A stretch of DNA of 64,000 nt from contig NZ_JAEPNI010000001.1 of NCBI RefSeq assembly GCF_017643475.1, positions 682,001 through 746,000 of the forward strand, given 5' to 3'. Of the stretch, positions 32,495 to 52,091 are shown piece by piece. The stretch is from Maricaulis sp. Its GTDB lineage: Bacteria > Pseudomonadota > Alphaproteobacteria > Caulobacterales > Maricaulaceae. The position numbers and the translations under genes were made by a program. Positions within the stretch are counted from its first letter, which is position 1. Every line of letters starts with the position of its first letter. Under the pieces are notes generated by a model, which was not told where the DNA came from, did not search any database, and was given only the letters and a program-made list of their open reading frames with translations.

Positions 32495-32636
32495 CTTCCC
32501 CGCTCGCGGGGAAGTGGGCTCGCCGTAGCCAACGGCGAAGGCGGGGTGGAAGGGGCGCGAACGCTAGTGAGAACAACTCCTTCGCGCTACGCCCCCTCCG
32601 TCCCTTCGGGACACCTCCCCGGGGGGAGGATAACTC
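32495..32636. repeat. Cluster of short perfect palindromes next to the MFS gene
   Basis: Hairpins cttccccgc-tc-gcggggaag (32495-32514), gtccc-ttc-gggac and cctcccc-ggggagg-like sequence follow one another and run up to the stop of the MFS gene. The last may act as its terminator. Confidence 0.55.
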
Positions 32637-34143
32637 AAACCGTCTGTTTCTTTCCCGGCACGGCAAGCAGCGCCAGTGCAGCAATGGTCCACGATCCCGC
32701 CGCGATGAAGAAGGTCAGTATTGCCTGGCCACCCAGGAAACCGGTCAGGATGGGCCCCATGACGCCGGCGACGACCATTTGGGGCAGGACGATGAAGAAA
32801 TTGAAGATGCCCATATAGATACCCATCTTCCTGGCCGGCAGGGCGTCGGAGAGGATGGCGTAGGGCATGGTCAGGATGGAGCCCCAGGCCATGCCGATGC
32901 CGATCATCGGGATCAGTAGCATGTTCGGGTCCGAGATGAAGTAGAGCGAGGCATAGGACAGGGCGCCGGCACACAGGCTGAAACCGTGAGCGAAACGGCG
33001 ATTGATGCGCGCCGAGATCAGCACCAGGGCGATCGCCCAGACAGCGGATACACCATTATAGGTGCTGAACAGCGTACCGACCCAGTTGGCGCCCTGGTTA
33101 TAGGCTTCCGAGGTCGGGTCCGAGCTTCCGTAATGATGCGCGGCAATGGCGGGCGTCGTGTAGACCCACATGATGAACAGCGCGAACCAGGAGAAGAACT
33201 GGACGACTGCCAGGCGCTGCATGACCTTCGGCATGGAGACCAGGTCGGTCATGATGTGACTGACGAGATTGTTCGTCTGCTGGCGCATTTTGAACAGGGC
33301 GTGGGTCAGGAAGGCGAGGCCGATACCGCCCGCTGTCACTGTCAGCACATATAGTTCAGGCGCCATCTCGAAGCGATAAATGGCAAAACTGCCCAGCGCG
33401 AAAACCATCAACAGGCTGACGGCATTGGCGATGAAATAGCTGGCGGATTTCTCCTGCGGCTCGGAAGAATTGCTCCGGCCGGCATCCTTGCTTTCTTCCT
33501 TGTCGAAGCTGGCGAGTTGTTCCGGTGAATATTCGCGTGTGGACAGGATCGTCCATCCCACCGCGATGAACATGGCGATGCCGCCGATATAGAAGGAGTA
33601 TTTGACCGAGTCCGGGATGACGCCTTCCGGGGCGGTTGTGGCGACGCCAAACCACTCCGTCAGAATGCCCGGCATGGCCGAGGCGAGGGCGGCACCAGCA
33701 CCGATCAGGATGGTCTGCATGGCAAATCCCTGGGTGCGCTGGCGCGAGGGCAGCATGTCCCCGACAAAGGCGCGGAAGGGTTCCATGGACACATTGATCG
33801 AGGCGTCGAGCACCCACAACATCACCACGCCGGCCCACAGATAGGGCGAGTGCGGCATGATGAAGAGGGAGAGTGTGGACAGCACGGCACCGGCCAGGAA
33901 ATAGGGGCGACGGCGGCCCAGCGGGCCCCAGGTGCGGTCGGAGAAATAGCCGATCAGCGGCTGTACCAAGAGGCCCGTTACCGGTCCGGCGAGCCAGTAG
34001 ATCGCCAGGTTGGACACATCCGCGCCCAGGGTCTGGAAGATCCGGCTGATATTGGCGCCCTGCAGGGCAAAAGCCATCTGGATCCCGAAGAAGCCAAACG
34101 ACATGTTGAAAATCTGCCAGAAACCCAGCCGAGGCTTTAACAT
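32635..34143 (-). CDS. MFS sugar transporter (maltose/oligosaccharide, SLC45/GPH-like)
   Basis: A 502-aa, twelve-helix major facilitator. Motifs typical of this sugar group are visible: GANISRIFQTLGADVSNLA in helix 1, GPVTGLLVQPLIGYFSDRTWGPLGRRRPYF (the loop 2-3 motif) and NVSMEPFRAFVGDMLP. A long central loop is charged (REYSPEQLASFDKEES). The group includes the maltose permease MalY of Caulobacter-type loci. It would import maltodextrin fragments from the periplasm. GGGGAGAG lies before ATG 34143. It is divergent from the lacI-type gene, with TGCAA-rich sites between. Confidence 0.88.
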   Translation of the reverse strand: MLKPRLGFWQIFNMSFGFFGIQMAFALQGANISRIFQTLGADVSNLAIYWLAGPVTGLLVQPLIGYFSDRTWGPLGRRRPYFLAGAVLSTLSLFIMPHSPYLWAGVVMLWVLDASINVSMEPFRAFVGDMLPSRQRTQGFAMQTILIGAGAALASAMPGILTEWFGVATTAPEGVIPDSVKYSFYIGGIAMFIAVGWTILSTREYSPEQLASFDKEESKDAGRSNSSEPQEKSASYFIANAVSLLMVFALGSFAIYRFEMAPELYVLTVTAGGIGLAFLTHALFKMRQQTNNLVSHIMTDLVSMPKVMQRLAVVQFFSWFALFIMWVYTTPAIAAHHYGSSDPTSEAYNQGANWVGTLFSTYNGVSAVWAIALVLISARINRRFAHGFSLCAGALSYASLYFISDPNMLLIPMIGIGMAWGSILTMPYAILSDALPARKMGIYMGIFNFFIVLPQMVVAGVMGPILTGFLGGQAILTFFIAAGSWTIAALALLAVPGKKQTV

Positions 34144-34185: not shown

Positions 34186-34303
34186 CGGGTTGAGCTTGTC
34201 GAGTAGAAAGGTGGGCGGCTCAATAGCCTATGTTTGGCAACCTTGAGCGCTCTATCAGCGTCCTGTGTCGGCGGGTTTGCGTTCTCTCGTGGTGGTCGAA
34301 GTA

Positions 34304-34317
34304 TGCAAAAAATTGCA
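34304..34317. promoter_or_regulatory. LacI-type operator candidate TGCAA-AAAA-TTGCA
   Basis: A perfect inverted repeat of TGCAA with a 4-bp A spacer, midway between the divergent MFS and lacI genes. It closely matches the palindrome upstream of the alpha-glucosidase at 37160. Further TGCAA half-sites lie at 34391 and 34400, near the regulator's start, which suggests autoregulation. Confidence 0.6.
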
Positions 34318-34429
34318 AGATCGGTGAAATTGGTGTTCTCTCGGAGAAAGTGAGCGGTGGAGCTTGCAATTCCGTTTTCGCCGTTTACCACTGCAAATGC
34401 TGCAAAAAAGACAAGAGGGCTATGAAATC

Positions 34430-35443
34430 GTGACGAAAAAGACCACTCGTCTGGAAGATCTCGCCAAGCGGGCCGGTGTCTCTGTGTCCACCGCGTCACG
34501 GGCATTGAATGACAGCCCCTCCGTCAATATGCGCACCAAGCAGGCGATCTGGAAGCTGGCGCGGGAGCTGGACTACCCCTTCCGTCGTCACATGCCCGCG
34601 GGCCCCATCGGGGCCAAGGCAACAATCTCGATCGTGGTGCCCAAGCCGCAGGACCGCGATACCCGCCTGTCCGATCCGTTTTTCTTCGAACTGCTGGCCG
34701 GTGTTGGTGATGCCGCGCGTGAGCGCGATTGCGACATCCATATCTCGCATGTCACACCGGGCAGTTATGATGACCTGGTAATGTCGATGACGACACACCG
34801 CGCCGATGGTGTGATCTTTGTCGGGCAGAGCACGCTGCACAACGCCTTCAACCGGCTTGCCGAGACCGAGGGGCGTTTCGTGGTCTGGGGCGCCGAGCTT
34901 CCCGAGCAGCGCTATTGCTGTGTCGGTTCGGACAATTTCGCCGGTGGTCGCCGGGCTGCGGCGCACCTGGCGCGACTGGGGCGCAAGCGTATCGCCTTTC
35001 TGGGGCAGTCCGAGGCGCCGGAAGTCATGCAGCGTTTCCGCGGTTATCGCGATGCGCTGGATGCGGCGGGGCTTGATGTGAGTGACGAGCTGGTCATCCC
35101 GTCCCATTTCGACGTGGAGTCGGCGGAGGCCTCGATCGAGGCTGTGGTCAAGAATGGTGTCGAGATCGACGGTATAGTCGCGGCCAGTGACGTGATTGCC
35201 TTTGGTGCCATTCGCGGTCTGCAGCTGGCCGGTCTGACCGTGCCGAAGGATGTCTCTGTTGTCGGTTACGACAACATCTCCTTTGCGCGCTATTCCAATC
35301 CCGCGCTGACCACGATTGACCAGGACATGACCGCGGCGGGTCGATTGATCCTGTCCAAACTGCTCGACTTCCGTGGGCCACAGGCGCGTCGTTCCGAGCG
35401 CCTGTCGACCGACCTTATTGTGCGCGCCAGCTGTGGCGCCTAG
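34430..35443 (+). CDS. LacI-family transcriptional regulator of the alpha-glucan locus
   Basis: A 337-aa repressor: N-terminal helix-turn-helix with hinge (TRLEDLAKRAGVSVSTASRALNDSPSVNMRT), then a periplasmic-binding-protein-like sensor domain (SIVVPKPQDRDTR, FVGQSTLHNAFNRLAE, SDNFAGGRRAAAHLARLGRKRIAFLG, DVSVVGYDNISFARYSNPALTTIDQD). The start is taken as GTG 34430 with AGAGGG upstream; ATG 34397 would add 11 residues. The ligand is probably a maltodextrin-type sugar, judged from the neighbours. Its stop TAG overlaps the TAG of the convergent alpha-glucosidase gene in the tetranucleotide CTAG. Confidence 0.93.
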   Translation: MTKKTTRLEDLAKRAGVSVSTASRALNDSPSVNMRTKQAIWKLARELDYPFRRHMPAGPIGAKATISIVVPKPQDRDTRLSDPFFFELLAGVGDAARERDCDIHISHVTPGSYDDLVMSMTTHRADGVIFVGQSTLHNAFNRLAETEGRFVVWGAELPEQRYCCVGSDNFAGGRRAAAHLARLGRKRIAFLGQSEAPEVMQRFRGYRDALDAAGLDVSDELVIPSHFDVESAEASIEAVVKNGVEIDGIVAASDVIAFGAIRGLQLAGLTVPKDVSVVGYDNISFARYSNPALTTIDQDMTAAGRLILSKLLDFRGPQARRSERLSTDLIVRASCGA

Positions 35444-37065
35444 GTGCGCGCCGCAATCAGGCCTGCATAGCCGGCGAGACTATCGCCATCGCTGTCGTGA
35501 TTGACGCTCTCGATCACCGTCCATCCGGCCGGCAACTGCCAGTCAATCTTTTGTGCGCTCAGATTGAAGGCGCAGAGCAGGGCGTCATTGCCCGAGCCAC
35601 GCTGAAAGATTGCCAGCTTGTCCGGTGTGTCTCCGAAAAAGCGCATGGAGCCTTCGCGCAGGGTGCGGTTTTCGCGGCGCAGGGCCAGAATGCGTCTTGC
35701 AATGGTGAGCGTTGAATTCTCGTCTGCAGCCTGCAGGTCGACGGCAAGCTCGGCGTGGCGTGGATCCACCGGCAGCCAGGGTTCGGCTGATGAAAAGCCG
35801 GCGTTTTCAGCGTCGTGCTGCCAGGGCATGGGGGTGCGGGCGCCATCGCGACCGAGGGTCTCCGGCCAGTTGGTGATGGCTTCGGGGTCCTGCAGTCTCT
35901 CAAATGGCACATGCGCCTGGGGCAGGCCCAGCTCCTCGCCCTGATAGATGAAGATGTTCCCGCGCAGGCTGTTCAGCAGCAGGAAGGACATGCGGGCGAA
36001 TGCGGCCTGGTTCTCCTCGCTCGCCCATCGCGAAATCGCACGCGGTGCGTCGTGATTGGAGAAAGTCCAGCTCGGCCAGCCGGTCTCGTCATTTTCCGGC
36101 CAAAGCTCGGTAGCTTCCCGGATCAGGTCCGCATTAAGCGCGTTGGCGTAGAGATAGAGGAAGCCGTAGGCACTGTGCAGCCGGCCCGGCGGGGCGGTGT
36201 AGAGCTTCATCTCTTCCTGTCCGCGCTCGCCGCCGACTTCTGCAACGAGGAAGCGCCCGGAATATGTGTCAGCCTGGGCGCGCAGTTCTTCCAGGAAATC
36301 AATGATGGCCGGGTGGGACTGGTTATAGAAATGGTGCTGGAAGTCGAAGGGGCGGGTCTTCTTCGTGCTGGCATCCCGGACCGGCGGATTATCGCGCATG
36401 TTCAGGTCGTGCATCATGAAGTTCACGGCATCCAGGCGAATGCCGTCTACACCGCGATCCAGCCAGAATTTCTGCGTGGCCAGGATGGCGTCCTGGACGG
36501 CTGGATTGTGCACGTTGAGATCGGGCTGCTGTGGCAGGAAGTTGTGCAGATAATACTGTCCGCGCCGAGCATCCCAGGTCCAGGCCGGACCACCAAAAAC
36601 GGATTGCCAGTTTGTCGGCGGGGAGCCGTCCGGGTTGGCGTCAGCCCAGACAAACCAGTCGGCCTTGTCATTGTCCCGGCTGGTGCGGCTTTCGCGGAAC
36701 CAGTCGTGCTGGTCCGAGGCATGTGAATAGACCTGGTCGATAATGACTTTCAGGCCGAGCTCATGTGCACGCGCCAGCAGGGCGTCGAAGTCTTCGAGAG
36801 TGCCAAAAATCGGATCTACGTCACAGAAGTCGGCCACGTCATAACCGAAATCGGCCATCGGGGATTTGTAGAAGGGGGAGATCCAGACGGCATCCACGCC
36901 CAGCTCGGCAATATGCTCGAGGTGTTGGGTGATGCCGGGCAGGTCGCCGATTCCATCGCCGTTCGAGTCGGCATAGCTGCGGGGATATATCTGGTAGATC
37001 GTCGCGCCTTTCCACCATTCCGCCTGCGGTGACGGTTCGGCGGATGATCTGACAAGCATCTCCAT
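35440..37065 (-). CDS. GH13 alpha-glucosidase, cytoplasmic type (copy 1)
   Basis: A 541-aa GH13 (subfamily 23-like) enzyme without a signal peptide. Opening WWKGATIYQIYPRSYADSNGDGIGDLPG is typical. Catalytic residues by count: nucleophile Asp212 (GIRLDAVNF), acid/base Glu276 (VAEVGGE), transition-state Asp339 (FSNHDAPR). A C-terminal beta domain follows (ALLCAFNLSAQ). It would split maltose and short maltodextrins to glucose. The start is ATG 37065 with AAGGGGAAC upstream; the frame extends to 37185, but that region holds the operator. It shares about 541 vs 531 aa length and full motif order with the second GH13 at 44940. Confidence 0.93.
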   Translation of the reverse strand: MEMLVRSSAEPSPQAEWWKGATIYQIYPRSYADSNGDGIGDLPGITQHLEHIAELGVDAVWISPFYKSPMADFGYDVADFCDVDPIFGTLEDFDALLARAHELGLKVIIDQVYSHASDQHDWFRESRTSRDNDKADWFVWADANPDGSPPTNWQSVFGGPAWTWDARRGQYYLHNFLPQQPDLNVHNPAVQDAILATQKFWLDRGVDGIRLDAVNFMMHDLNMRDNPPVRDASTKKTRPFDFQHHFYNQSHPAIIDFLEELRAQADTYSGRFLVAEVGGERGQEEMKLYTAPPGRLHSAYGFLYLYANALNADLIREATELWPENDETGWPSWTFSNHDAPRAISRWASEENQAAFARMSFLLLNSLRGNIFIYQGEELGLPQAHVPFERLQDPEAITNWPETLGRDGARTPMPWQHDAENAGFSSAEPWLPVDPRHAELAVDLQAADENSTLTIARRILALRRENRTLREGSMRFFGDTPDKLAIFQRGSGNDALLCAFNLSAQKIDWQLPAGWTVIESVNHDSDGDSLAGYAGLIAART

Positions 37066-37159
37066 CGTGGTGTTCCCCTTTGTCCTTCTTAACGCCCTAG
37101 TTTCGTTGGGCGAATTCGCAGTTGTGTGAGATGCAAGCGCAAGTCTTGCTTTCACAAAG

Positions 37160-37185
37160 TCTGCAAAAATTGCAGAAAATTGCAA
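37160..37185. promoter_or_regulatory. Strong LacI-type operator upstream of the GH13 alpha-glucosidase gene
   Basis: TCTGCAA-AAA-TTGCAGA (37160-37176) is a perfect 7-bp inverted repeat. It overlaps a second copy, TTGCAGAAAATTGCAA (37170-37185). It lies about 95 bp before the alpha-glucosidase ATG and 196 bp before the TonB-receptor ATG on the other side, so it can control both. Confidence 0.7.
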
Positions 37186-37380: not shown

Positions 37381-40182
37381 ATGCGCAAGATCACGAAATC
37401 TCGCCGCGGTATGCTTATGGCGACGGCGGCATCTTCAGTCGCCCTGGGGCTGAGCCCTGCGAGTGCAGCGATTGCCCAGGACGAGGAAGCTGGCCCAACT
37501 GAGGTCATTACCGTCACCGGTATCCGCGCCGCCATAGAGAGCTCGATCGAGGCGAAGCGCGAGTCAACTTCAATCGTCGAGGCAATCTCGGCAGAGGACA
37601 TCGGCAAGCTGCCGGACGTTTCCATCGCGGAATCGCTGGCGCGTCTGCCGGGTCTTGCCGCGCAACGTGTTCGCGGTCGCGCTCAGGTGGTTTCCGTGCG
37701 CGGTCTCGGTCCGGACTTCACGACTGCACTTCTGAACGGGCGTGAACAGGTCACCGCTGGCGATAACCGCGGCGTCGAGTTTGATCAGTATCCGTCCGAG
37801 CTGATCAACCAGGCGCTCGTCTACAAGACACCGGACGCCCAGCTGGTCTCGCAAGGTCTGGCCGGTACGGTCGATCTTCGCACCATCCGCCCGCTCGAGT
37901 TTGGCAACCGCTCGGTCAGCCTGAGCGCAAGCTATGAGATGAACATGAATGATCAGCTCAATGCTGATTATGACGATACGGGTTACCGTCTGACGGGTAC
38001 CTATGTGAACCAGTTCGCTGATGACACGGTCGGCCTGGTTTTCTCCATTGCTCACCAGAATACACCGACGCAGGGTGAGAAATACGAAATCTGTAACTTC
38101 CAGGACCTGAGCGGAAACAATGGTCCGGAATGTTTCAAGATGTTCTCCGAATCCCGCGATCTTGACCGTACAGCGATGCTGGGCACGCTGGAATTCGAGC
38201 CGAATGACACGTTCAATGCGTCTGTTGACGTGATGTACACCGAGTTTACCGATGGCGGTGTCCGTCGCGGTATCGAACTGGCAACCGGCAACTGGCTGGG
38301 TGGCAGTAATTCCGGTATCTCCCATCAGACCATTGAGGCCTCAAATGGCCTGGTAACAGCCGGCACGTTCTCTAACGTCTTTGGTGTCGTTCGCAACGAC
38401 GTGCAGGAGCGAGACGCCGAGCTGTTCTCGCTCGGTTTCAACGCTCAGTGGCGCCCATTCGACAACTGGGAGTTTGAAGCTGATGTCAGCCACTCCCGTG
38501 TCGAGCGTACGGCACTCGATTTCGAAAGCTATATGGGTTTCGCAGAAGGCGGTTGGCCGAATTACCCATCGGCCATCGATGATGTGAACTACAACTTCAA
38601 CGGCAATCGTTATCGCTTCAATTCTTCGGTTGGTGCCGGGTATGCCGACCCGTCCTTGATGGTGCTGACCGACCCGGGCGGCTGGGGCCAGGACGGCTTT
38701 AACAAGACGCTCAACACCGATGACGAGCTGAACGCTCTGCGCCTCAGCGCGACGCGTGAGTTCGCACAGGGCTTCTTCACGTCAATCGAAGGCGGCCTGT
38801 ATATGACGTCGCGTGAAAAAGAGCGCGAAACGATCGAGAACTTTGTCGACCTTGCCAGCGGAAATGGCGCTGAGGCTATTCCGAGCCAGTACCTGATGGC
38901 ACCGACCAGCCTGAGCTGGGTGTCCAACATCGAGGTGCCTGCCTACGATCCGACAGCCCTGTTGAGTGACGGCATCTACACGCTGCGTCCGCTGAACCCG
39001 GCCTTTATTGTCGGCAAGCAGTGGCGCGTCGAAGAAGACGTGATGGTTGCGTACGGGCAGGCCAATTTCGAATCTCAGCTCGGCGACGTTCCCTACTTTG
39101 GTAACGTTGGTGTCCAGGTGGTCCAAACCGACCAGAGCTCTTCGGGCCCGGCCTCTTACTTTGACCCGAATCTGAACACGAGCATCGTGCTGGATACGCC
39201 CGTTTCGGCAGGTGATGACTATACCGAGGTGCTTCCTAGCTTGAACGTCAGTTTCGAGTTGAACGAAGACACATATCTCCGCTTGGGTGCGGCACGGACG
39301 CTGGCCCGGGCACGTATGGATGATATGCGCGCCTCTGTTTCCGTGAACGCACCGGACGCTACGGTTTGTAGCGTCGATCCGGTATCTGGAACGTTTACTT
39401 ATACGCCGCCGTCGGACTCGACGCGGTCCTGTCTCAGCGGAAGCTCGGGCAATCCGTTCCTGCGTCCGTACATCGCTGACAGCTTCGATATTTCGCTCGA
39501 GCGTTACTTCGGGGATGGTGCAGGATACTGGTCCATTGCGGCATTCCACAAGGAAATCGACAGCTGGGTCTTCGGCTCGGTTCCGTTCACGGTTGATGCT
39601 TCGACTGCTGTCGATGACATCTTCGGTGCTGGTACGGCTGCGGCCAACCCGGGCGTCGGCGATGCGCGTTTCTCTGCGGCCGAGAACGTCAATGGGGGTT
39701 GGCTCCGCGGTATGGAATTCTCGCTCAGCCTGCCGGCTGAAGTCTTCCTGCCGGAAATGTTCGAAGGCCTCGGAATGTTCGCGACCTACTCGATCACGGA
39801 CAGCGAGATCCAGCCTCCGACGGCGAACAGCCCGATCACCATTCCGGGCCTGTCGGAAACTCTCGGCAACATCACGGTCTACTATGAGCGTGAGGGCTGG
39901 GAGTTCCGCGTTTCCAATCGCTGGCGTTCCGATTTCCTGGCCGAGCTGCCGGACTTCACCGGTCAGCCGGACTTCCGCTCCGCTCTGGAAGAGTCGGTTG
40001 TGGATGCCCAGATCGGTTACGAGTTTGCCGAAGGTCCGCTGGATGGCCTGACCGTACAGCTGCAGGCGAACAACGTCTTTGACGAACGTTTCGGTACGTT
40101 CGTGAACGGTGATGAGCGTCAGGTCCGTAACTGGGAAGAGTATGGTGCGACCTACACTTTCCGCCTGAGCTGGCGTCGTTAA
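37381..40182 (+). CDS. TonB-dependent outer-membrane receptor for alpha-glucans (MalA-like)
   Basis: A 933-aa receptor. It has a signal peptide (about 33 residues, cleavage near AAIAQ), an N-terminal plug from about residue 40 with EVITVTGIRAAIESSIEAKRESTSIVEAIS, then IGKLPDVSIAESLARLPG and VSVRGLGPDFTTALLNGR, followed by a 22-strand-type barrel and a C-terminal aromatic strand (TYTFRLSWRR). The IGKLPD and VRGLGPDF signatures mark the sugar-transporting TBDR class of Caulobacter and Xanthomonas. Placement between glucosidases and the repressor makes maltodextrin the likely substrate. GGGAGG lies before ATG 37381. A terminator follows. Confidence 0.93.
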   Translation: MRKITKSRRGMLMATAASSVALGLSPASAAIAQDEEAGPTEVITVTGIRAAIESSIEAKRESTSIVEAISAEDIGKLPDVSIAESLARLPGLAAQRVRGRAQVVSVRGLGPDFTTALLNGREQVTAGDNRGVEFDQYPSELINQALVYKTPDAQLVSQGLAGTVDLRTIRPLEFGNRSVSLSASYEMNMNDQLNADYDDTGYRLTGTYVNQFADDTVGLVFSIAHQNTPTQGEKYEICNFQDLSGNNGPECFKMFSESRDLDRTAMLGTLEFEPNDTFNASVDVMYTEFTDGGVRRGIELATGNWLGGSNSGISHQTIEASNGLVTAGTFSNVFGVVRNDVQERDAELFSLGFNAQWRPFDNWEFEADVSHSRVERTALDFESYMGFAEGGWPNYPSAIDDVNYNFNGNRYRFNSSVGAGYADPSLMVLTDPGGWGQDGFNKTLNTDDELNALRLSATREFAQGFFTSIEGGLYMTSREKERETIENFVDLASGNGAEAIPSQYLMAPTSLSWVSNIEVPAYDPTALLSDGIYTLRPLNPAFIVGKQWRVEEDVMVAYGQANFESQLGDVPYFGNVGVQVVQTDQSSSGPASYFDPNLNTSIVLDTPVSAGDDYTEVLPSLNVSFELNEDTYLRLGAARTLARARMDDMRASVSVNAPDATVCSVDPVSGTFTYTPPSDSTRSCLSGSSGNPFLRPYIADSFDISLERYFGDGAGYWSIAAFHKEIDSWVFGSVPFTVDASTAVDDIFGAGTAAANPGVGDARFSAAENVNGGWLRGMEFSLSLPAEVFLPEMFEGLGMFATYSITDSEIQPPTANSPITIPGLSETLGNITVYYEREGWEFRVSNRWRSDFLAELPDFTGQPDFRSALEESVVDAQIGYEFAEGPLDGLTVQLQANNVFDERFGTFVNGDERQVRNWEEYGATYTFRLSWRR

Positions 40183-40205
40183 GTCTCTCGTGAGTGACTA
40201 GACTG

Positions 40206-40241
40206 AGCCCCCGCCGGCCTGTTCGGCGGGGGCTTTTTTTA
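40206..40241 (+). terminator. Rho-independent terminator after the TonB receptor
   Basis: A stem of 11 bp (agcccccgccg / cggcgggggct, loop gcctgtt) followed by six or more T. It starts 24 bp after the stop codon. Confidence 0.92.
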
Positions 40242-40313: not shown

Positions 40314-41822
40314 ATGGAAAACTCACGGATCAAGCGTCTTCTGGTGGTCGGCGGCGGTACGGCTGGCTGGATGGCCGCTGCTGCACTGTCCAAATTCCTG
40401 GGCGAGGGGCTGGAGATCTCGCTCGTCGAGTCTGATCAAATCGGCATAGTCGGTGTGGGCGAGGCAACGATCCCCCAGATCAAGCATCTCAACCGGGCGC
40501 TGGAACTGGACGAGCGGAAATTCGTGGCCCGGACCCAGGGTTCGTTCAAGCTGGGCATCGAGTTCCAGAACTGGCGCCAGAAAGGCCACGCCTATCTGCA
40601 TAATTTTGGTTCCATCGGGCTGAATGTGAACTCCACGCATTTCCACCATTATTGGCTGCGCAGTCGTGCAGAGGGCAATGAGCTGGACCTGTGGGACTAC
40701 TGCGTGAACACCGAGGCCGCCCGCCAGGGGCGGTTTGCGCCATTGGAAAAGCTGGGCTCGTCGCCGCTCAACGGAATCGCCTACGCCTATCACTTTGACG
40801 CGGCGCTCTATGGCCAGTTCCTGCGCAACTATGCCGAACAGCGTGGCGTGACGCGGATCGAGGGCCGGATTGTTGATGTTCACCAGGACAGCGAGAGCGG
40901 TGAGGTGCGCAGTGTCGAGCTTGAGAGTGGGCAGAAAGTTGAGGCGGATTTCTTCATTGATTGCTCCGGCTTTCGTGGCCTGTTGATCGAAGGCGCCCTG
41001 GAAACCGGATATGAGGACTGGACGCACTGGCTGAAATGCGACCGCGCGTTTGCCGTGCCGAGTGAGAATGCTGGGCCGATCCGCCCCTATACCCAGTCGA
41101 TCGCCCATGATGCTGGCTGGCAGTGGCGCATTCCCCTGCAGCATCGCACCGGCAATGGTCATGTCTTTTCCAGCGCCTATACCGACGAGGATGCGGCTCG
41201 CGAGACCCTGCTGGCCAATCTGGAAGGCGAGCCCCTGTCTGATCCGCGACTGATCCGTTTCACAACAGGTCGCCGGAAGAAGTTGTGGAATCGCAATGTC
41301 GTCGCGCTGGGCCTGGCAAGCGGCTTCCTGGAGCCGCTGGAATCCACCTCCATCCATCTTATCCAGTCCGGGATCAGTCGCCTGGTTCCGCTCTTCCCGG
41401 CCGGCGCGGGAGGTGAGGCGCTGGCGGATGAGTATAATCGCCAGATGGGGCTGGAATACGAGAAGATCCGTGACTTCATCATCCTGCACTATCACCTCAA
41501 CGAGCGCACGGATTCACCCTTCTGGATCGATTGCCGTGAAATGGACGTGCCGGACACGCTGGTGCGCAAAATGGCGCTCTTCCGCGAGAGCGGACGGCTC
41601 TATCACGAGCAGGAAGACCTATTCACGGATTCAAGCTGGCTCCAGGTCATGCTGGGCCAGGGTATCACGCCGCAAGCCTATCACCCGGTGGCAGACGACA
41701 TGTCTTCTGAGCGGCTCGAGGGGTTCCTGGGGGATATACGGCGGATCGTCACGTCTGCGGCCGGGCAGTTGCCGTCGCATGAGGACTTTGTTCGCTCAAA
41801 CTGTCCTGCGCCTGCAGGCTAG
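40314..41822 (+). CDS. Flavin-dependent tryptophan-halogenase-like protein (copy 1)
   Basis: A 502-aa FAD-binding protein. The N-terminal GGGTAGWMAAAALS dinucleotide motif is followed by GVGEATIP. Conserved Lys79 (TQGSFKLGIEF) sits at the same number as the catalytic lysine of PrnA. Other halogenase hallmarks are the WxWxIP motif (WQWRIP, 269-274) and EPLESTSIHLIQ, which carries the conserved Glu-Ser pair. The WxWxIP motif blocks monooxygenase activity in true halogenases, so the family signature is complete. Free FADH2 and halide would be needed; no flavin reductase is nearby. ATG 40314, with GAGGGG upstream. Its stop overlaps that of copy 2 in CTAG. Confidence 0.9.
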   Translation: MENSRIKRLLVVGGGTAGWMAAAALSKFLGEGLEISLVESDQIGIVGVGEATIPQIKHLNRALELDERKFVARTQGSFKLGIEFQNWRQKGHAYLHNFGSIGLNVNSTHFHHYWLRSRAEGNELDLWDYCVNTEAARQGRFAPLEKLGSSPLNGIAYAYHFDAALYGQFLRNYAEQRGVTRIEGRIVDVHQDSESGEVRSVELESGQKVEADFFIDCSGFRGLLIEGALETGYEDWTHWLKCDRAFAVPSENAGPIRPYTQSIAHDAGWQWRIPLQHRTGNGHVFSSAYTDEDAARETLLANLEGEPLSDPRLIRFTTGRRKKLWNRNVVALGLASGFLEPLESTSIHLIQSGISRLVPLFPAGAGGEALADEYNRQMGLEYEKIRDFIILHYHLNERTDSPFWIDCREMDVPDTLVRKMALFRESGRLYHEQEDLFTDSSWLQVMLGQGITPQAYHPVADDMSSERLEGFLGDIRRIVTSAAGQLPSHEDFVRSNCPAPAG

Positions 41823-43339
41823 GTGCTGGCCAGCAGGTCGTGGGCCTTGCAGTGCCGGTCTACGAATTCCTGGTGCGACAGCATTGCGCCGGACGCTTCG
41901 TCGATGGCGCGCTTGATGCCAGACAAATAGCGCGGGCCGTCGACGCCGCGGATATCGACCAGGCTGTCATATCGATCCGGTGTCGGGCCCTGTCCCAGGA
42001 AAACAGCCAGCCAGCTGGGGTTGGTGAAGAGCTCGATCTGGCGCGCAACCAGGCGACCATTGCGCTGGAATTGCTCGATCTTGTACGCCAGCGTGTCGGG
42101 GATCTGCATCTCCCGGCAATAGCGCCACAATTCCCCGTCCTGCCGGTCGTTCAGGCAATAGTGCAGGATCAGGAAATCCCGGATGCTTTCATATTCCTCG
42201 ATGGTCAGCCGGTTGTATTCCTCGGCGGAAAGCGGGCTCCCATCGCGGCCCGGGAACAGCGCCAGGAAGCGCATGATGCCAATCTGGATGAGATGCAGCG
42301 AGGTGGATTCCAGTGGTTCCATAAAGCCGGCAGACAGGCCGATCGCCACGCAGTTCTTGTTCCAGAATTTCTTCCGACGTCCGGTGGTGAAGCGCAGCAT
42401 GCGCGGATCCGCAAGCGCCTTGCCGTCCAGGTTGTTCATCAGCGTGTCCGTCGCCGCCTGGTCATCAACAAACTGGCTGCAATGCACATAGCCATTGCCG
42501 GTGCGGTGCTGCAGGGGAATGCGCCATTGCCAGCCGGCTTCGCGCGCGGTCGAGCGGGTGTAGGGGGTGAAGCCTTCGGGGCCGCTGCGTTCGCAGGGCA
42601 CGGCGACGGCCCGGTCGCAGGGCAGCCAGTGTGTCCAGTCCTCATATCCGGTTTCCAGAGCGCCTTCGATCAGCAGGCCGCGGAAGCCGGTGCAATCGAC
42701 AAAAAAATCGCCATCAATGACCTGGCCATCTGCCAGGGTGATGGACTCGATAAAGCCGCCCTCATTGCGCAAGCTGACATTGGTGACGCTGCCTTCGATA
42801 CGCTTGACGCCCTTGCTTTCGGACAGGCGCCGCAGAAAGTGCGCATAGAGCCCGGCGTCAAAATGATAGGCATAGTCAAAGGTCGACTGGATCTGGCGCG
42901 GATTGTTCGAGGGCTGGGCAAACCGGCCCTGTTTCGCCATGCCCCAGCACATGGAATATTCCTGCAATTCCTCCGCCTTGCCCTCGGCAAACGCCTTGAA
43001 CCAGTACTGGTAGAGCGGCAGCGTGTCGAAGTCGGCGCCGAAATGTCCGAACGGGTGGAAGTAGCTGTGTTGTTCCTTCCGCCAGTCGACAAACTCGATG
43101 CCCAGTTTGAACGAGCCCTGGGTCTCGCGCACAAAGGTTGCCTCGTCGATGCCCAGTGAGGCATTGAAGCGCTTGATGTGCGGGATGGTCGCCTCGCCGA
43201 CACCCACGGTGGGGATGTCCTCGGACTCCACCAGCACGATCTCGCAGCCACCGCGCGTGGCATTCGATAGTGCGGCAGCGGCCATCCATCCGGCAGAGCC
43301 GCCGCCGACAATGACGATCTTGCGCAAGGCCTCAGACAT
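41819..43339 (-). CDS. Flavin-dependent tryptophan-halogenase-like protein (copy 2)
   Basis: A 506-aa paralogue of copy 1, in the opposite orientation and sharing the same blocks: GGGSAGWMAAAALS, GVGEATIPHIKRFN, Lys78 in TQGSFKLGIEF, WQWRIPLQHRTGNGY and EPLESTSLHLIQ. The two differ in the middle (HSYFHPFGHFGADFDTLPL here, HAYLHNFGSIGLNVNSTHF there), the region that lines the substrate pocket in characterised halogenases, so they may use different substrates. ATG 43339 overlaps the stop of the upstream MFS gene by 8 bp, so the two are translationally coupled. A GTG five codons earlier is possible. Confidence 0.9.
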   Translation of the reverse strand: MSEALRKIVIVGGGSAGWMAAAALSNATRGGCEIVLVESEDIPTVGVGEATIPHIKRFNASLGIDEATFVRETQGSFKLGIEFVDWRKEQHSYFHPFGHFGADFDTLPLYQYWFKAFAEGKAEELQEYSMCWGMAKQGRFAQPSNNPRQIQSTFDYAYHFDAGLYAHFLRRLSESKGVKRIEGSVTNVSLRNEGGFIESITLADGQVIDGDFFVDCTGFRGLLIEGALETGYEDWTHWLPCDRAVAVPCERSGPEGFTPYTRSTAREAGWQWRIPLQHRTGNGYVHCSQFVDDQAATDTLMNNLDGKALADPRMLRFTTGRRKKFWNKNCVAIGLSAGFMEPLESTSLHLIQIGIMRFLALFPGRDGSPLSAEEYNRLTIEEYESIRDFLILHYCLNDRQDGELWRYCREMQIPDTLAYKIEQFQRNGRLVARQIELFTNPSWLAVFLGQGPTPDRYDSLVDIRGVDGPRYLSGIKRAIDEASGAMLSHQEFVDRHCKAHDLLAST

Positions 43340-44774
43340 TTTCGCCCTTTTCACTCTTCGGGAGGGGTTTCACACGAAGCCAGAGAAGCGCGGACAGGGC
43401 AAGGGATGCCGCCGCGATGGCGAAGAGCAGGGCTTTGTCCTCGACCCGCTGCAGCAGCAGGCCGATGCTCATCGAGACCAGTAGCTGGGGCAGGACGACG
43501 GACAGGTTGAAAATGCCCATGAACAGCCCCATCCGCGTGGCATTGATGCGCTGGGACATGATGGCAAAGGGCAGGGAGACGATTGCGGCCCAGCCGACGC
43601 CGAGAATGGCCATGATCAAGTAGAGCGCGAGCGGTGAGGTCCCGGCAAAATAGGCGATCCCATATCCCATCGACATGACTGCCAGGCAGGCGGCCTGCAG
43701 GCGCACGCGCGGCATCTTCCTCGCTAGCGGGTTCAGCACGAAGGCCGGAAGGGCGGCTGCGACCCCGTTGAGGATCAGGAATGAGAAATTGGTGATGCTG
43801 CCCCAGCTCGCGCTGCCCGCATCGGGCATGACGTGTTCCAGATACGGGTAATAGAAGACGAACATGGTCTGTACGCCAACCCAGGAGAAGGAGTGGGCGG
43901 CCATGATCTTCTGGAATTCGGTGAGGTCGTTCTTACCGGCCCCGGCGCTCGGCTTTTTCAGGAACAGCACCCAGATCATCAAAATGGCAGTGGCCGCTGC
44001 GCAGGCCCATTCGATGACATGGCCGGAGCGTTCGATGGAAAAGGCGCGTTCAACGAGCGCGTAGAGGTCGTAGGCGAAAATGCCCCACAGCGGCAGCGTG
44101 CCGATGGCGATCAAGCGGAGATCGAAACCGCCTTTCTGCTCGTTTTCCTCTTCGCTTCCCAGTTCGCGCGGTTCTTCCATCAGCATGGCTGGGATAAGGG
44201 TGAAGAGCAGGACGAGTCCGGCGCCGGTATAGATCAGGGTTTCATTGCCCAGGGTCGCGCCTATGGCATAGGCCAGCATGCCGAACGTGCCCGACACCGT
44301 CTGCATCCAGGTATAGCCGCGCGTCCGCAGCTCGCCTTCCGGGGTGAGGTCGGAAATCACCGCACGGGTCGGGTTGAAGCTGACATTGATCGACAGATCC
44401 ATGACCAGGGCAACCGCCAGGGCCACGCCGACGATCTCGGTCAGGCCGAGCGCGCTGGAGATCAGGCCGATATTGGGCAGGGCAATCAGGGCGAGGGCTG
44501 TCATCACCCCGCCGATGAGAATAAACGGGCGGCGTCTGCCGCCCCAGAACCAGACCTTGTCGGAAATCATGCCGATAATCGGCTGGCCGAGAATGCCGGC
44601 AATCGGGCCGGCGGCCCAGACAAGTCCGATTTCCTCGAGGTTGAGGTCGTATTTGGAGCGGAGAATGGCGCTCAGGGCCGCGATCTGGATCGACAGGGCA
44701 AACCCCATCGCCGTCGCAGGCAATGTCATCAGCGCAAAAAAGGGCTTCGACAGCCGTTTCTGCATCTCGAGCAT
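43332..44774 (-). CDS. MFS sugar transporter, second copy
   Basis: A 480-aa, twelve-helix transporter of the same group as the one at 32635. It has the loop 2-3 motif GPIAGILGQPIIGMISDKVWFWGGRRRPF and SINVSFNPTRAVISDLTPEGELRTRG. The central loop is charged (EEPRELGSEEENEQKGG). Sequence differs enough from the first copy for different oligosaccharide preference. GGGAGGGGAG lies before ATG 44774. It is the first gene of a two-gene leftward unit with the halogenase copy 2. Confidence 0.88.
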   Translation of the reverse strand: MLEMQKRLSKPFFALMTLPATAMGFALSIQIAALSAILRSKYDLNLEEIGLVWAAGPIAGILGQPIIGMISDKVWFWGGRRRPFILIGGVMTALALIALPNIGLISSALGLTEIVGVALAVALVMDLSINVSFNPTRAVISDLTPEGELRTRGYTWMQTVSGTFGMLAYAIGATLGNETLIYTGAGLVLLFTLIPAMLMEEPRELGSEEENEQKGGFDLRLIAIGTLPLWGIFAYDLYALVERAFSIERSGHVIEWACAAATAILMIWVLFLKKPSAGAGKNDLTEFQKIMAAHSFSWVGVQTMFVFYYPYLEHVMPDAGSASWGSITNFSFLILNGVAAALPAFVLNPLARKMPRVRLQAACLAVMSMGYGIAYFAGTSPLALYLIMAILGVGWAAIVSLPFAIMSQRINATRMGLFMGIFNLSVVLPQLLVSMSIGLLLQRVEDKALLFAIAAASLALSALLWLRVKPLPKSEKGENV

Positions 44775-44813
44775 GGTGGTTCTCCCCTCCCGGCGTGTCT
44801 TTTGACACATTTA

Positions 44814-44835: not shown

Positions 44836-44939
44836 TTGCTGCGCGTCACGGGTTTTCACTGTATTGTTTGCTAAATTCGACAGAGTCCGTTTTGGAAGAT
44901 TCCGCAAAATGGACTGCGGTTGTGGTGAAGGAGAGGGCC

Positions 44940-46535
44940 ATGTCCGAGCAGGATTGGTGGCGGGGTGCCGTCATTTACCAGATCTATCCGCGGTCCTATC
45001 TGGATACGACGGGCAATGGTGTGGGTGATCTGAAGGGTATTCACGACAAGCTCGAATACATCGCGGATCTTGGGGTGGACGGGATCTGGATTTCACCCTT
45101 CTTCACCTCGCCGATGGCGGATTTCGGGTATGACGTGTCCGACTATCGCGATGTCGATCCTCTTTTCGGATCGCTCGCGGATTTTGATGCGATCATCGAG
45201 AAGGCGCATCGTCTGGGCGTCAAGGTCCTGATCGACCAGATATATTCGCATACCTCCGACCAGCATGCCTGGTTTGGGGAAAGCCGCCGCGATGGAGGGA
45301 GTGACAAGGCGGACTGGTATGTCTGGGCCGATGCCCGGCCGGACGGCTCTCCGCCCAATAACTGGCAGAGTTTCTTCTTTGGTCCGGCCTGGACCTGGGA
45401 TGCGCGTCGCGGCCAGTACTACATGCACAACTTCCTGCCCCAGCAGCCGGACCTGAATCTGTGGAATCCCGAGGTGCGCGCCGAGATCTGTGACACGCTG
45501 CGCTTCTGGCTGGATCGCGGTGTTGATGGTGTGCGTCTGGATGCGATTTCGCATTGCCTGCACGATCCGCAGATGCGCGATAATCCGGCGCGGGAAAATC
45601 CCGATGCCAAAAAGCCCGGCGACATGCAGAGCATGGTGCACACGGTCGGCCTGCCCGATACGGCAGAGTTCATGCGCGAGTTGCGCGCCGTGCTGGACGA
45701 ATATCCGGGACGGTTTGCGGTGGGGGAGATCGGGGGCGAGGATCCGCTGGCCCAGGCCGTGACCTATGCTGACCCCGAGCGTTCCCTGCAGACGGCCTAT
45801 AATTTCTCCTTCCTGTTCAAGGGGCCGCTGACGCCGGCGCTGATCCGCGAGGCGATCGAGGATCAGCTGGTACGGCATCCAAGCGGTTGGCCGACCCAGG
45901 TGTTCTCCAATCATGACGCCGTGCGGGCGCCGACACGCTGGGGCGGGGCGGATGCGTCGCCGGCCTATGCGCAAATGCTCAATGCGCTGCTGCTCAGTCT
46001 TTATGGCTCGGTCTGTCTTTATCAGGGCGAGGAGCTGGGTTTGTGCCAGGCGGATGTGCCCTATGAGCGCCTGGTCGATCCCGAGGCGATCAAGAACTGG
46101 CCGCACACGCTGGGCCGTGATGGTGCGCGCACGCCCATGCCGTGGACGCGTGAGGCGCCCTGGGCTGGCTTCGCCGGGCTAGAGCCCTGGCTGCCGGTGG
46201 ATGCGCGTCATGTCGACCTGTCTGTCGAGGCCCAGGCGGGTATTGACGGCTCGACGCTGGAAGTCACCCGGGCGCTGCTGAAGAACCGAAAGGCGTCCGC
46301 CGCATTGCAAACCGGTGAAATCCGCTTTGTTGATGCCGGTGAAAATGTGCTGTGTTTCGAGCGCGTGTCCGGTGATGAGCGCGTGATGTGTGTGTTCAAT
46401 TTCGGCGACGCGGAGAGCGAAATTGAACTGCCGGGACGCTGGTGCGGAATGAGCGATATTACTCTTCCCGCGGTTTGCGATGGGAGCCGGTTGCGATTGC
46501 GGGGGCACGGCTTCTGGCTGGGTCTCCCGGCCTGA
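44940..46535 (+). CDS. GH13 alpha-glucosidase, cytoplasmic type (copy 2)
   Basis: A 531-aa GH13 enzyme without signal peptide. DWWRGAVIYQIYPRSYLDTTGNGVGDLKG opens it. Catalytic residues by count: nucleophile Asp201 (GVRLDAISH), acid/base Glu263 (VGEIGGE), Asp326 (FSNHDAVR). The C-terminal domain ends LRLRGHGFWLGLPA. AAGGAG lies 9 bp before ATG 44940; the frame's long upstream extension is not coding. A paralogue of the enzyme at 35440. Keeping two such enzymes suggests differing chain-length or linkage preference. Confidence 0.93.
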   Translation: MSEQDWWRGAVIYQIYPRSYLDTTGNGVGDLKGIHDKLEYIADLGVDGIWISPFFTSPMADFGYDVSDYRDVDPLFGSLADFDAIIEKAHRLGVKVLIDQIYSHTSDQHAWFGESRRDGGSDKADWYVWADARPDGSPPNNWQSFFFGPAWTWDARRGQYYMHNFLPQQPDLNLWNPEVRAEICDTLRFWLDRGVDGVRLDAISHCLHDPQMRDNPARENPDAKKPGDMQSMVHTVGLPDTAEFMRELRAVLDEYPGRFAVGEIGGEDPLAQAVTYADPERSLQTAYNFSFLFKGPLTPALIREAIEDQLVRHPSGWPTQVFSNHDAVRAPTRWGGADASPAYAQMLNALLLSLYGSVCLYQGEELGLCQADVPYERLVDPEAIKNWPHTLGRDGARTPMPWTREAPWAGFAGLEPWLPVDARHVDLSVEAQAGIDGSTLEVTRALLKNRKASAALQTGEIRFVDAGENVLCFERVSGDERVMCVFNFGDAESEIELPGRWCGMSDITLPAVCDGSRLRLRGHGFWLGLPA

Positions 46536-46566: not shown

Positions 46567-46596
46567 TTGCGAGGCATGATTGCAAAAACTCGCAAA
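46567..46596. promoter_or_regulatory. TTGCAA-rich operator candidate before the pullulanase-like gene
   Basis: TTGCGAG (46567-46573) and CTCGCAA (46589-46595) are a perfect inverted pair that encloses TTGCAAAAA. It lies in the 77-bp gap after GH13 copy 2, so the next gene may have its own regulated promoter. Confidence 0.45.
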
Positions 46597-46612
46597 GTAA
46601 AGGGAGATGTTT

Positions 46613-49027
46613 ATGCGCGCAGCCCTGTTCGGATCGACAGCATTTCTTGCACTCACATTGGCTTCTTGCTCGCAAGAACCGGTGAGTCAGACTGTCGAGC
46701 CTGTGTCGCAAAATACCGAAAACGGAGTCGCGGAAACTGTCGCGCCTGACCCGGCACGCATGCGGGCCGAGATCAATTCCGATGGCTCCATCCGGGTCAT
46801 GTTCCGGGGTGATGCCGCCCGCTCGACAGATCCGGCCGATTACCGGTTAAGCGATGGCGAGGGCAATGTCTTGCCGATTTCAACCGTGCTCCCCACGGAC
46901 GCGTCCGGCGCCCTGATCTTCTCCAGTGAAGCGCTGGGCCCGGCGCGGGTCTATTTCGTCGAACAGCTGGAGATGGGGCTTCGCGCCCGGGCGCGTTTTG
47001 ATGGCTGGTTCCGCACGCTCTATTCCGACAAGCCGCTGGGCGCGAATATCGCTGCCGACGGTTCGGCCACCGACTTCCGCATTTTTGCGCCGCGCGCGGA
47101 CCGGATCCGGATCTATCTCTACGAAGGTCCGGAAGATGGGCCGGAGCAGGCCACCGAGGCCGTCTGGATGCAGCGCGACGCGAACGGCGTCTTCGAGGCA
47201 CAGTTCGAGGGTGATCTGCACGGTGTCTACTATGACTTCACGGTGCATGGGCCGAACGATCCGGGCAACCAGTTCTACGGGACCGAGCCGGTGCACATTT
47301 CAGACCCTTATGCCCGGGTGAATGTCGACGGGTTCGGCAAGAGCCGTGTGTGGCGCGCCACCATCCCGGCGACGCCGCTGGTCAATGGCCGTCCGCCCAT
47401 GCAGGACGTGGTCTCCTATGAGGTGCACGTGCAGGATTTCACCGATCTCCTACCGGTGGCCGACGAGCTGGGCAGTTCCATCCCGGCCTTTGCCACCCCG
47501 GGCCTGACCAATTCGCGTGGAGAGCCGATCGGCTTTGATCACCTGGTCAATCTGGGCATCAACACGGTGCACCTGCTGCCGGTGCAGGAATTCATCCACT
47601 ACCCGACCGAGGAGTGGGCGGCGGGGCATGGCGATGTGCCGATCCTGCAGGAGCTGGGCATTGCGCACGAGGATTATCAGTGGGGCTATCGTACCACGCA
47701 TGCCTTTGCCATCGAGAGCCGTTATCGCCAGACGGAAACGGACTGGGGCGCCCAGCGTGACCAGTTCCGCGATCTGGTCCAGGCCTTCCACGACCGTGGC
47801 ATCGCCGTGATCATCGATATCGTGCCCAACCATACCGGCGAGAGCATGGAGGATCGCGACACACCGCTGAACTTCTCGGGTCTCGACCGGTTCTACTATT
47901 ACCGGCTGAACGAGGATGGCGTGCATATCGGCACGTTCGGCAACGAGGTGAAGACCGAGGACCGCCCGATGGTCCAGCGCTGGCTGATCGACCAGTGCCG
48001 CCAGCTGATCGAGGAGTTCGGCATTGACGGTTTCCGCATCGACCTCGCGGGCCAGATCGACGAGCAGACGCTTTACGCCCTGCGCCGCGAGCTCGGTGAG
48101 GATGTCATCATCTATGGCGAGCCGTGGATTGATGTGAACGACCCCTGGATCCGCGAAATGCCGGACTGGGACTGGTACAAGGAAGATGCGCCGATCACCT
48201 TCTTCCAGGACAATGCGCGTGACGCCTTTGTTGGTTCGCCCTTCGTGCTGGAGAATCCGGCGACCGATCTGGGTTGGTCAGGCGGCAATGCAGAGCTGCG
48301 CGAACGCGTCATGACCGCGATCGCCAATTCCTTTGACGACGAGCCGGTCTCGCCCAATCAGGGCCTCAACTACATGGACATCCATGACAACTGGACGCTG
48401 GCGGACCGGTTTGCGCTCAGTGACTGGGATGGTCGCAATGGCGTGAACGAGCCGCACTACCGCATCGCGGCAGGCCTGCTGTTTACCTCGCTCGGTCCGG
48501 TGGTCATCCATGGCGGATCCGAATTCATGCGCTCCAAGGGTATCGCCCCCCTGCACGAACAGCATGTCGAGACGGATTATCGCAACATCCATCTGAAGGG
48601 ACGCGAGGACACGTTCAATGTCCGCACACCCAACCAGTTTGTCTGGGAGAATATCGGCGCGACTGCCGATGAGGCGCCAGCGGATTACGCCGGCATGCTG
48701 GACTGGTGGCGCGGTCTGATCCATTTCCGCCTCTCTGACGAGGGCGAGGTCTTCCGGATCGCAGAGCACCGTGATGGCCACGTTCGCTGGTTCACGCCGG
48801 ATGACGGTCACCTGCTCGCCTATACGATGGGCGACAGTGTGCTGGTGGCCGCCAATGTCGGAGCGAGCGACGCGCAAATCCCTGTTGAATTGCCGGAGGG
48901 AAACTGGGTCCGCATCGCCGATGGTGAGGTGATTGACCAGGAAAATGGTGTTGGCGGGGCGCTGTCCGGTGGCCGTGAGGCGGTTGCAGCGCCGGCAGGC
49001 ACCTTGCAGATCTGGGTGCGGCGCTAG
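46613..49027 (+). CDS. Lipoprotein alpha-amylase/pullulanase-like GH13 enzyme
   Basis: An 804-aa surface or periplasmic enzyme. The lipobox LTLASC gives a lipid-modified Cys. Residues about 55-145 form a PUD/CBM-like beta domain, about 150-235 the CBM48 (TDFRIFAPRADRIRIYLY), and about 265-700 the GH13 barrel. YEVHVQDFTD is typical of the pullulanase group. Catalytic residues by count: Asp477 (GFRIDLAG), Glu503 (YGEPW), Asp592 (DIHDNW). It would cut alpha-1,6 or alpha-1,4 bonds of branched glucans outside the cytoplasm. ATG 46613 is preferred to 46607 because AAAGGGA is correctly spaced from it. Confidence 0.92.
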   Translation: MRAALFGSTAFLALTLASCSQEPVSQTVEPVSQNTENGVAETVAPDPARMRAEINSDGSIRVMFRGDAARSTDPADYRLSDGEGNVLPISTVLPTDASGALIFSSEALGPARVYFVEQLEMGLRARARFDGWFRTLYSDKPLGANIAADGSATDFRIFAPRADRIRIYLYEGPEDGPEQATEAVWMQRDANGVFEAQFEGDLHGVYYDFTVHGPNDPGNQFYGTEPVHISDPYARVNVDGFGKSRVWRATIPATPLVNGRPPMQDVVSYEVHVQDFTDLLPVADELGSSIPAFATPGLTNSRGEPIGFDHLVNLGINTVHLLPVQEFIHYPTEEWAAGHGDVPILQELGIAHEDYQWGYRTTHAFAIESRYRQTETDWGAQRDQFRDLVQAFHDRGIAVIIDIVPNHTGESMEDRDTPLNFSGLDRFYYYRLNEDGVHIGTFGNEVKTEDRPMVQRWLIDQCRQLIEEFGIDGFRIDLAGQIDEQTLYALRRELGEDVIIYGEPWIDVNDPWIREMPDWDWYKEDAPITFFQDNARDAFVGSPFVLENPATDLGWSGGNAELRERVMTAIANSFDDEPVSPNQGLNYMDIHDNWTLADRFALSDWDGRNGVNEPHYRIAAGLLFTSLGPVVIHGGSEFMRSKGIAPLHEQHVETDYRNIHLKGREDTFNVRTPNQFVWENIGATADEAPADYAGMLDWWRGLIHFRLSDEGEVFRIAEHRDGHVRWFTPDDGHLLAYTMGDSVLVAANVGASDAQIPVELPEGNWVRIADGEVIDQENGVGGALSGGREAVAAPAGTLQIWVRR

Positions 49028-52057: not shown

Positions 52058-52071
52058 GTTGTGCTTACCTC

Positions 52072-52091
52072 TGTGCAAAAACATGCAAACA
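52072..52091. promoter_or_regulatory. TGCAA-type operator candidate before the GH97 gene
   Basis: TGTGCAAAAACATGCAAACA holds two TGCAA units 10 bp apart with an A-rich spacer, 15-34 bp upstream of the GH97 start. A further ATGCAAAC lies at 52127-52134. It marks the right border of the putative regulon. Confidence 0.45.

Follow-up and report, generated by a model that had tools for sequence, protein, structure and literature searches.

A convergent pair of flavin-dependent halogenase homologues beside a putative TonB-dependent sugar receptor in Maricaulis sp.

A stretch of 64,000 nucleotides of Maricaulis sp. (contig NZ_JAEPNI010000001.1, positions 682,001 to 746,000, called the window below) carries two flavin-dependent halogenase homologues, HalA and HalB, in a locus of sugar-utilization type, with the gene of a TonB-dependent receptor (TBDT) next to HalA. 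What could such enzymes do among the genes of sugar uptake? A first-pass annotation of the sequence had tied the pair to alpha-glucan or to a compound accompanying glucan. When the surroundings of related halogenases were compared, the halogenase was found to go with certain sugar receptors rather than with alpha-glucan itself, and this adjacency hints at a job connected with the receptor.

The receptor as constant partner

Two data sets counted as tests, namely the best 80 of 583 confirmed halogenase loci, a set which leans towards HalA-like enzymes and includes Alpha-, Beta- and Gammaproteobacteria (e.g. Maricaulis, Rugamonas, Colwellia), and 40 receptor regions free of halogenase. The family models were derived from loci of the family itself, those for SapC and Cupin_8 from halogenase regions. 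A TBDT was present in 78/80 loci, which bears out the earlier placing of such halogenases beside TonB receptors and shows this adjacency to be conserved. The receptor was of TIGR01782 type in 71/80 loci. In seven of the remaining nine it had a different architecture, with OMP_b-brl_4 and TonB_dep_Rec in 7/7 and CarboxypepD_reg in 6/7 (in L096 at 3.3 kb upstream), which we take to be Oar-like; the Pfam check covered seven of the nine loci lacking a TBDT-model match, with L131 and L133 (4.7 kb stretch) outside it.

The glycoside hydrolases (GH) were less constant. GH13 was matched in 43/80 loci, and GH13, pullulanase-type or GH97 in 48/80, to be compared with 78/80 for the TBDT; a special link to alpha-glucan, or to something that comes along with glucan, could not be upheld on these figures. 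GH3 without any of these three was found in 10/80 loci, and 22/80 matched none of the five hydrolase models. Enzymes of the same kind existed in loci of beta-glucan type, and more divergent halogenases (390-415 bits) lay behind receptors in the galactoside (GH36) loci L178 and L179. Where a TBDT and its nearest halogenase were within 2.5 kb, the receptor was upstream on the same strand in 59 of 75 pairs.

The 40 halogenase-free regions, situated around 48 receptors of the 21-genome count described next, gave no model match to GH13, GH97, Cupin_8, SapC or DUF6445; LacI was matched three times and GH3 twice, and Phytase, GDPD and Chondroitinase B family lyase clusters were included (one member each tested). 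Receptors in 78/80 loci against GH13/GH97-type enzymes in 48/80, together with 0/40 halogenase-free regions holding GH13 or GH97, therefore indicate that the halogenase tracks sugar receptors.

For the 21-genome count, 20 genomes were hand-chosen from 59 and joined to the genome of the window; PF04820 rows below 300 bits (degenerate paralogues and fragments) were left out, in the own genome too, as were its TIGR01782 rows below the cut-off. Of the halogenases above 500 bits, 63/65 had a TIGR01782 TBDT at a distance of up to 8 kb, in alpha- and beta-glucan loci alike, and some divergent halogenases had non-TIGR01782 TBDTs beside them. The own genome contained 11 PF04820 genes (12 matches, two being parts of one gene) and four TIGR01782 receptors above the cut-off, of which three adjoin halogenases, and its two other receptor-halogenase loci carried GH3 and GH9 genes. 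Elsewhere in this genome (L015:7677-13349), a distant halogenase of 434 bits and a non-TIGR01782 TBDT lie on either side of a protein of 260 aa that matched nothing in Pfam or NCBIfam; the adjoining genes resemble nucleoside use by eye.

The halogenases and their nearest relatives

HalA and HalB are arranged tail-to-tail with 4 nt shared by their stop codons, and each intact protein matched PF04820 (Trp_halogenase, cut-off 21 bits) over its full length. The first-pass coordinates were exact (Table 1), and the full signatures it had described were recovered: the GxGxxG-type FAD motif GGGxAGW, GVGEATIP, SFKLGI, WQWRIP and EPLESTS could be read in both proteins, which are 53.2% identical (266/500). 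The catalytic residues are Lys79 and Glu343 in HalA, and Lys78 and Glu344 in HalB; the catalytic Lys and Glu of PrnA are K79 and E346. The substitution E346D, at this PrnA Glu position, is mentioned in the title of PDB entry 2jkc. Both residues were invariant in 26/26 aligned halogenases from the relatives' genomes and the window, and in 30/30 from the 80-locus set and the window, degenerate paralogues having been left out of both alignments.

The structure-sequence search, the AlphaFold model and the first row of the 30-sequence alignment took HalA from 40305, which adds three residues ahead of the ATG. The model had a pLDDT (predicted local distance difference test) of 91.7 and matched Xcc4156 (6y1w) in Foldseek with a template modelling score (TM) of 0.96 and 51% identity. 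The three closest solved relatives of HalA were 9luq (579 bits), Xcc4156 (577) and BrvH (6frl, 472), with PrnA (about 308) and RebH (about 270) clearly below; those of HalB were Xcc4156 (489), BrvH (476) and 9luq (472). The closest relatives of the pair are not free-tryptophan halogenases of the PrnA and RebH type. By sequence for both proteins and by fold for HalA, the pair is predicted to belong to the BrvH/Xcc4156 type of flavin-dependent halogenases; the active-site motifs are complete, and the enzymes appear able to put bromine or chlorine onto aromatic rings.

As far as the available parts of the papers on Xcc4156 and BrvH go (PMC7336383, PMC5945002), neither enzyme halogenates free tryptophan, both accept indole derivatives and prefer bromide, and the active site is open and might accept peptides; their native substrates were stated as unknown by the authors. 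The region by which RebH binds the backbone of free tryptophan has no counterpart in Xcc4156 (PMC7336383, same parts).

In a FastTree phylogeny of 228 sequences, the HalA genes of the family formed a single clade of 20 leaves (support 0.98). The HalB genes clustered apart, but support was only 0.08 for the node of all 26, against 0.88 for a part of it with 16 leaves; the node uniting the HalA and HalB groups was weak (0.51). HalA and HalB occupy different parts of the tree, so they may serve two substrates, as suggested earlier.

The sugar locus, its conservation and its predicted regulation

HalA is located directly downstream of the TBDT gene. The start of HalB overlaps the upstream major facilitator superfamily (MFS) gene by 8 nt, in agreement with the coupling to an MFS carrier that had been noted. 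The surroundings, with a LacI regulator, two MFS genes, GH13s, GH97 and the TBDT, are predicted from Pfam and NCBIfam matches to be a maltodextrin-type locus, as the flanking GH13 and TonB genes had already suggested. The TBDT, the glycoside hydrolases, an inner-membrane transporter and a LacI-type regulator that make up a carbohydrate utilization locus with TBDT (CUT locus) were all present. For the GH13 gene at 44940, the open reading frame (ORF) list gave a start at 43833, and the PF00128 match began at residue 383 of this long ORF.

Table 1. Positions of the halogenase genes, their neighbours and candidate operators in the window; positions preceded by an L number belong to other loci compared.
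Feature	Position	Strand	Match or remark
HalA, flavin-dependent halogenase homologue, 502 aa	40314..41822	+	PF04820, 670 bits; ATG 40314, stop 41822
HalB, flavin-dependent halogenase homologue, 506 aa	41819..43339	-	PF04820, 645 bits; ATG 43339, stop 41819
TBDT, TIGR01782 (TonB-Xanth-Caul), putative maltodextrin receptor	37381..40182	+	550 bits, cut-off 310
Terminator-like stem-loop and T-run	40205..40235	+	TBDT/HalA gap
MFS transporter	32635..34143	-	PF07690
LacI-family regulator	34364..35443	+	PF00356, PF13377
GH13, alpha-glucosidase/amylase family	35440..37185	-	PF00128
MFS sugar transporter	43332..44810	-	PF07690; TIGR01301 sucrose/proton symporter 82 bits, cut-off 511
GH13	44940..46535	+	PF00128; start taken from sequence
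GH13 with CBM48, pullulanase/isoamylase-like	46607..49027	+	PF00128, PF02922
Esterase gene	at 49056		Pfam
GH97	50006..52117	-	PF10566, PF14508, PF14509
Candidate LacI-type site, 1 mismatch	34303..34318	.	MFS/LacI intergenic region
Candidate LacI-type site, 1 mismatch	37170..37185	.	GH13/TBDT divergent region, 5' end of GH13 ORF
Candidate LacI-type site, 1 mismatch	46580..46595	.	upstream of pullulanase-like gene
Weak candidate LacI-type site, 3 mismatches	44892..44907	.	between MFS-HalB and GH13
DUF6445 (PF20043)	L100:12594-13268; L118:4831-5520; L177:6387-7157		halogenase-TBDT loci
Degenerate halogenase paralogue, own genome	L014:9271-10713; L013:9152-10387		four-gene halogenase cassettes beside receptors, GH3/GH9 loci

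The convergent pair behind the receptor was found in at least 12 of 58 other genomes of the family (G001, G004, G015, G022, G026, G037, G038, G043, G052, G055, G056 and G058), over seven genera including that of the window, and with this recurrence the layout is not due to chance. All 12 pair regions contained GH13, often together with LacI, MFS or GH97; one halogenase each was missed by the ORF picker in L021 and L022, and the pair search shows both. The convergent pair existed in five further regions (L222, L223, L224, L227 and L228). An orthologous receptor (E-value up to 1e-180) was identified in 23 of 137 family genomes, the own genome included, and a halogenase adjoined the TBDT in 21/23 of these loci with the window or 20/22 without it. 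The first-pass annotation had held that absence of the pair from related glucan loci would speak against its proposal. By this measure the proposal mostly stands: of the 23 loci, that of G049 lacks a halogenase, and that of G310 is cut off where its contig stops right after the receptor. A class-wide search with the TBDT of the window was too sparse to use (3/240 genomes, including the own one).

Candidate LacI-type sites were taken as matches to the consensus TTGCAA-N4-TTGCAA. Over the whole window they were in no excess at up to three mismatches (20 against 21 expected), nor was TTGC-N8-GCAA (2 against 1.6). However, all seven sites with up to two mismatches fall in the locus (34.3-52.1 kb), and the site recurs at orthologous promoters, in line with the LacI-type sites noted earlier. 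Besides the sites of Table 1, the GH13/TBDT divergent region has further ones at 37180 and 37313. In the 12 relatives, 31 sites with up to two mismatches were counted against 5.8 expected from mononucleotide shuffles (five each). The GH13/TBDT divergent promoter carried a site in 10/12 relatives (not in L023 and L024), and in 6/12 a site preceded HalB by no more than about 100 nt (L017, L018, L022, L024, L025 and L027). These sites are the strongest sign of a tie to sugar control, and with them the halogenases look like members of a LacI-controlled maltodextrin regulon, whose shared operator is predicted by consensus only. In the window itself, HalB comes after the MFS gene, and it is the weak site that lies upstream of that gene.

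A terminator-like hairpin was present in 46/63 co-oriented gaps between TBDT and halogenase, compared with 0.75 in mononucleotide shuffles. As a feature linked to the halogenase it was rejected, since 31/46 halogenase-free TBDTs have one too, and it is therefore a feature of the receptor gene. Lying behind this hairpin, HalA is probably produced at a lower level than the receptor.

Possible substrates and known systems

The genomic rule of a halogenase beside a sugar TonB receptor, with regulator sites, points to the receptor, peptides and metabolites as candidate substrates. The explanation favoured here, tentatively and with a probability of about one in three, is that HalA and HalB halogenate a polypeptide in the cytoplasm on an aromatic side chain, the receptor precursor being the most economical candidate, and so serve the TonB receptor of the regulon. 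The FAD motif begins at residue 12-13 in both proteins, which leaves no space for a signal peptide before it, so the pair would act in the cytoplasm, where FADH2 would be supplied by a general reductase. Bromine or chlorine would be placed on the receptor precursor before export, and HalA, behind the receptor, and HalB, with its own operator or in the MFS operon, may modify different sites. The modification could adjust how the receptor binds sugar, how its plug moves, or how well phage or bacteriocin recognize it, and if receptors are indeed halogenated, this would be a new control layer of nutrient uptake. A polypeptide substrate would agree with the adjacency to the receptor and with the open active site known from the relatives.

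The oxidative families that co-occur in some loci, Cupin_8 in 10/80 and DUF6445 in 8/80, both 0/40 in the halogenase-free regions, give modest support to a polypeptide substrate. In DUF6445 the HxD...H...RxT set was invariant in 6/6 sequences, and its model (pLDDT 90.8) matched HygX, SnoN and EctD, 2-oxoglutarate (2OG) and Fe(II)-dependent dioxygenases, with a best E-value of 4e-6 and TM of about 0.5; by its predicted structure it looks like a 2OG-Fe(II) dioxygenase. The degenerate halogenase paralogues formed a clade of 11 (support 0.90), each being gene two of its cassette, and that of L014 has Ser at both the catalytic Lys and Glu positions, so that it looks, by sequence, like a conserved pseudoenzyme. 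SapC and Cupin_8 genes also accompanied halogenases behind the receptor in a GH3 locus (L180, and L175 by clustering), and SapC in the galactoside locus L178 with a halogenase behind the receptor. We know of no role for SapC in receptor-halogenase loci.

Extended to other bacteria, the favoured explanation would mean that enzymes dedicated to the receptor covalently modify many sugar receptors of Proteobacteria, of TIGR01782 as well as Oar-like type, before these are exported. The enzymes would be BrvH/Xcc4156-type halogenases, joined in some loci by Cupin_8/DUF6445 oxygenases, and an inactive halogenase paralogue may act as their partner. This wider form is rather doubtful; if true, it would add a hitherto undescribed system for the post-translational modification of outer-membrane transporters. 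Among the matches listed in open-licence PMC, where DUF6445 and the cassettes with degenerate paralogues were not searched by name, no paper linking these halogenases with TonB sugar loci or such a regulon was present, and TonB does not occur in the Xcc4156 paper (PMC7336383).

Several observations weigh against the receptor as substrate. Of the TIGR01782 receptors in the 21 genomes, 30/78 had a halogenase within 3 kb and 48/78 had none, and the divergent halogenases (350-500 bits) were near a TIGR01782 TBDT in 4/12 cases. The G049 locus (L220) contained receptor, GH13, LacI and MFS with no halogenase within 19.9 kb, so that the halogenase is usual but not indispensable in an alpha-glucan locus; in G052 (L202) a TAA lies within the HalA frame, and the model matches of receptor and GH13 are still strong. 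Cupin_8, SapC or DUF6445 was found in 15/80 loci and none of the three in 65/80. An aromatic signature was sought by aligning 100 linked and 46 unlinked TBDTs, and no aromatic position was common to all sugar classes: W305 and W435 (68% and 61% of linked receptors, 9% and 2% of unlinked ones) are typical of the alpha-glucan group, and other halogenase-linked receptors are without one or both. Papers on maltose and starch loci of Xanthomonas (PMC1790865, and PMC10714752 on X. citri starch) contained no occurrence of halogenase in the parts available. The adjacency may also stem from a shared ligand rather than from the receptor being the substrate.

The tryptophan content of linked and unlinked receptors (13.3 and 8.8 per 1000) was set aside as confounded by ligand class. 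G049, which has halogenases elsewhere in its genome, forms a natural comparison strain.

A different product of the same chemistry would be a small diffusible aromatic of indole, tryptamine or phenol type, halogenated as a signal or weapon that the cell turns on once it meets sugar, with co-regulation alone behind the adjacency to the receptor. The predicted regulon sites near the halogenases speak for it, as does the action of BrvH and the Xanthomonas enzymes on free indole and its derivatives in vitro, reported in the available parts of PMC5945002 and PMC7336383. According to the same part of PMC5945002, however, BrvH turns indole over slowly, and the authors question whether indole is its native substrate. 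No biosynthetic-type family appeared among the Pfam matches of the neighbouring ORFs scanned, one signal hardly explains adjacency to receptors over several sugars and many bacteria, and the four-gene cassettes would require several products. This alternative is unlikely, if not greatly so.

Another possibility is that the halogenase scaffold was repurposed for a different flavin reaction, such as hydroxylation or oxidation, on the imported sugar or a component of the cell envelope. The association with glycan loci would suit it, halogenase-free receptor regions holding instead e.g. phytase, GDPD or Chondroitinase B family lyase, and the degenerate paralogue is evidence that halogenation can be given up within the family. 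HalA and HalB nevertheless retain the halogenase motifs, WxWxIP and the Lys/Glu residues included, and maltodextrins have no aromatic ring, which makes such a reaction improbable. Flavin-dependent halogenases form hypohalous acid, which lends something to a redox role in which FADH2 and oxygen are consumed or hypobromous acid (HOBr) is produced with no specific substrate; this is very improbable, as the link to sugar loci, the sets of paralogues and the orthology by position would all be left unexplained. That the halogenases are passive neighbours retained by linkage, irrelevant to sugar use, could appeal to the missing halogenase of G049 and the interrupted HalA of G052, but this is close to refuted already by their retention beside receptors in Alpha-, Beta- and Gammaproteobacteria and by the own LacI-type sites in 6/12 relatives.

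The locus can finally be set beside known systems. The CUT loci of Xanthomonas and the Caulobacter mal locus likewise possess a TBDT, alpha-glucosidases, a sugar transporter and a maltose repressor; a halogenase is unnamed in the available part of the paper (Blanvillain 2007, PMC1790865), whereas the locus in the window has two. The free-tryptophan halogenases PrnA, RebH and Thal have the fold in common with HalA (TM about 0.9) at 31-34% identity. BrvH from Brevundimonas is closer (45% identity and TM 0.93 to the HalA model) and, like HalA and HalB, has a second halogenase gene adjacent (PMC5945002, available part), but it was placed outside the HalA group in the tree. Xcc4156 and 9luq, the latter from Pseudoalteromonas sp. 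L11, showed about 51% and 50% full-chain identity and TM of 0.94-0.96 to the HalA model, and both fall within the 70-leaf group that contains HalA (support 0.966).

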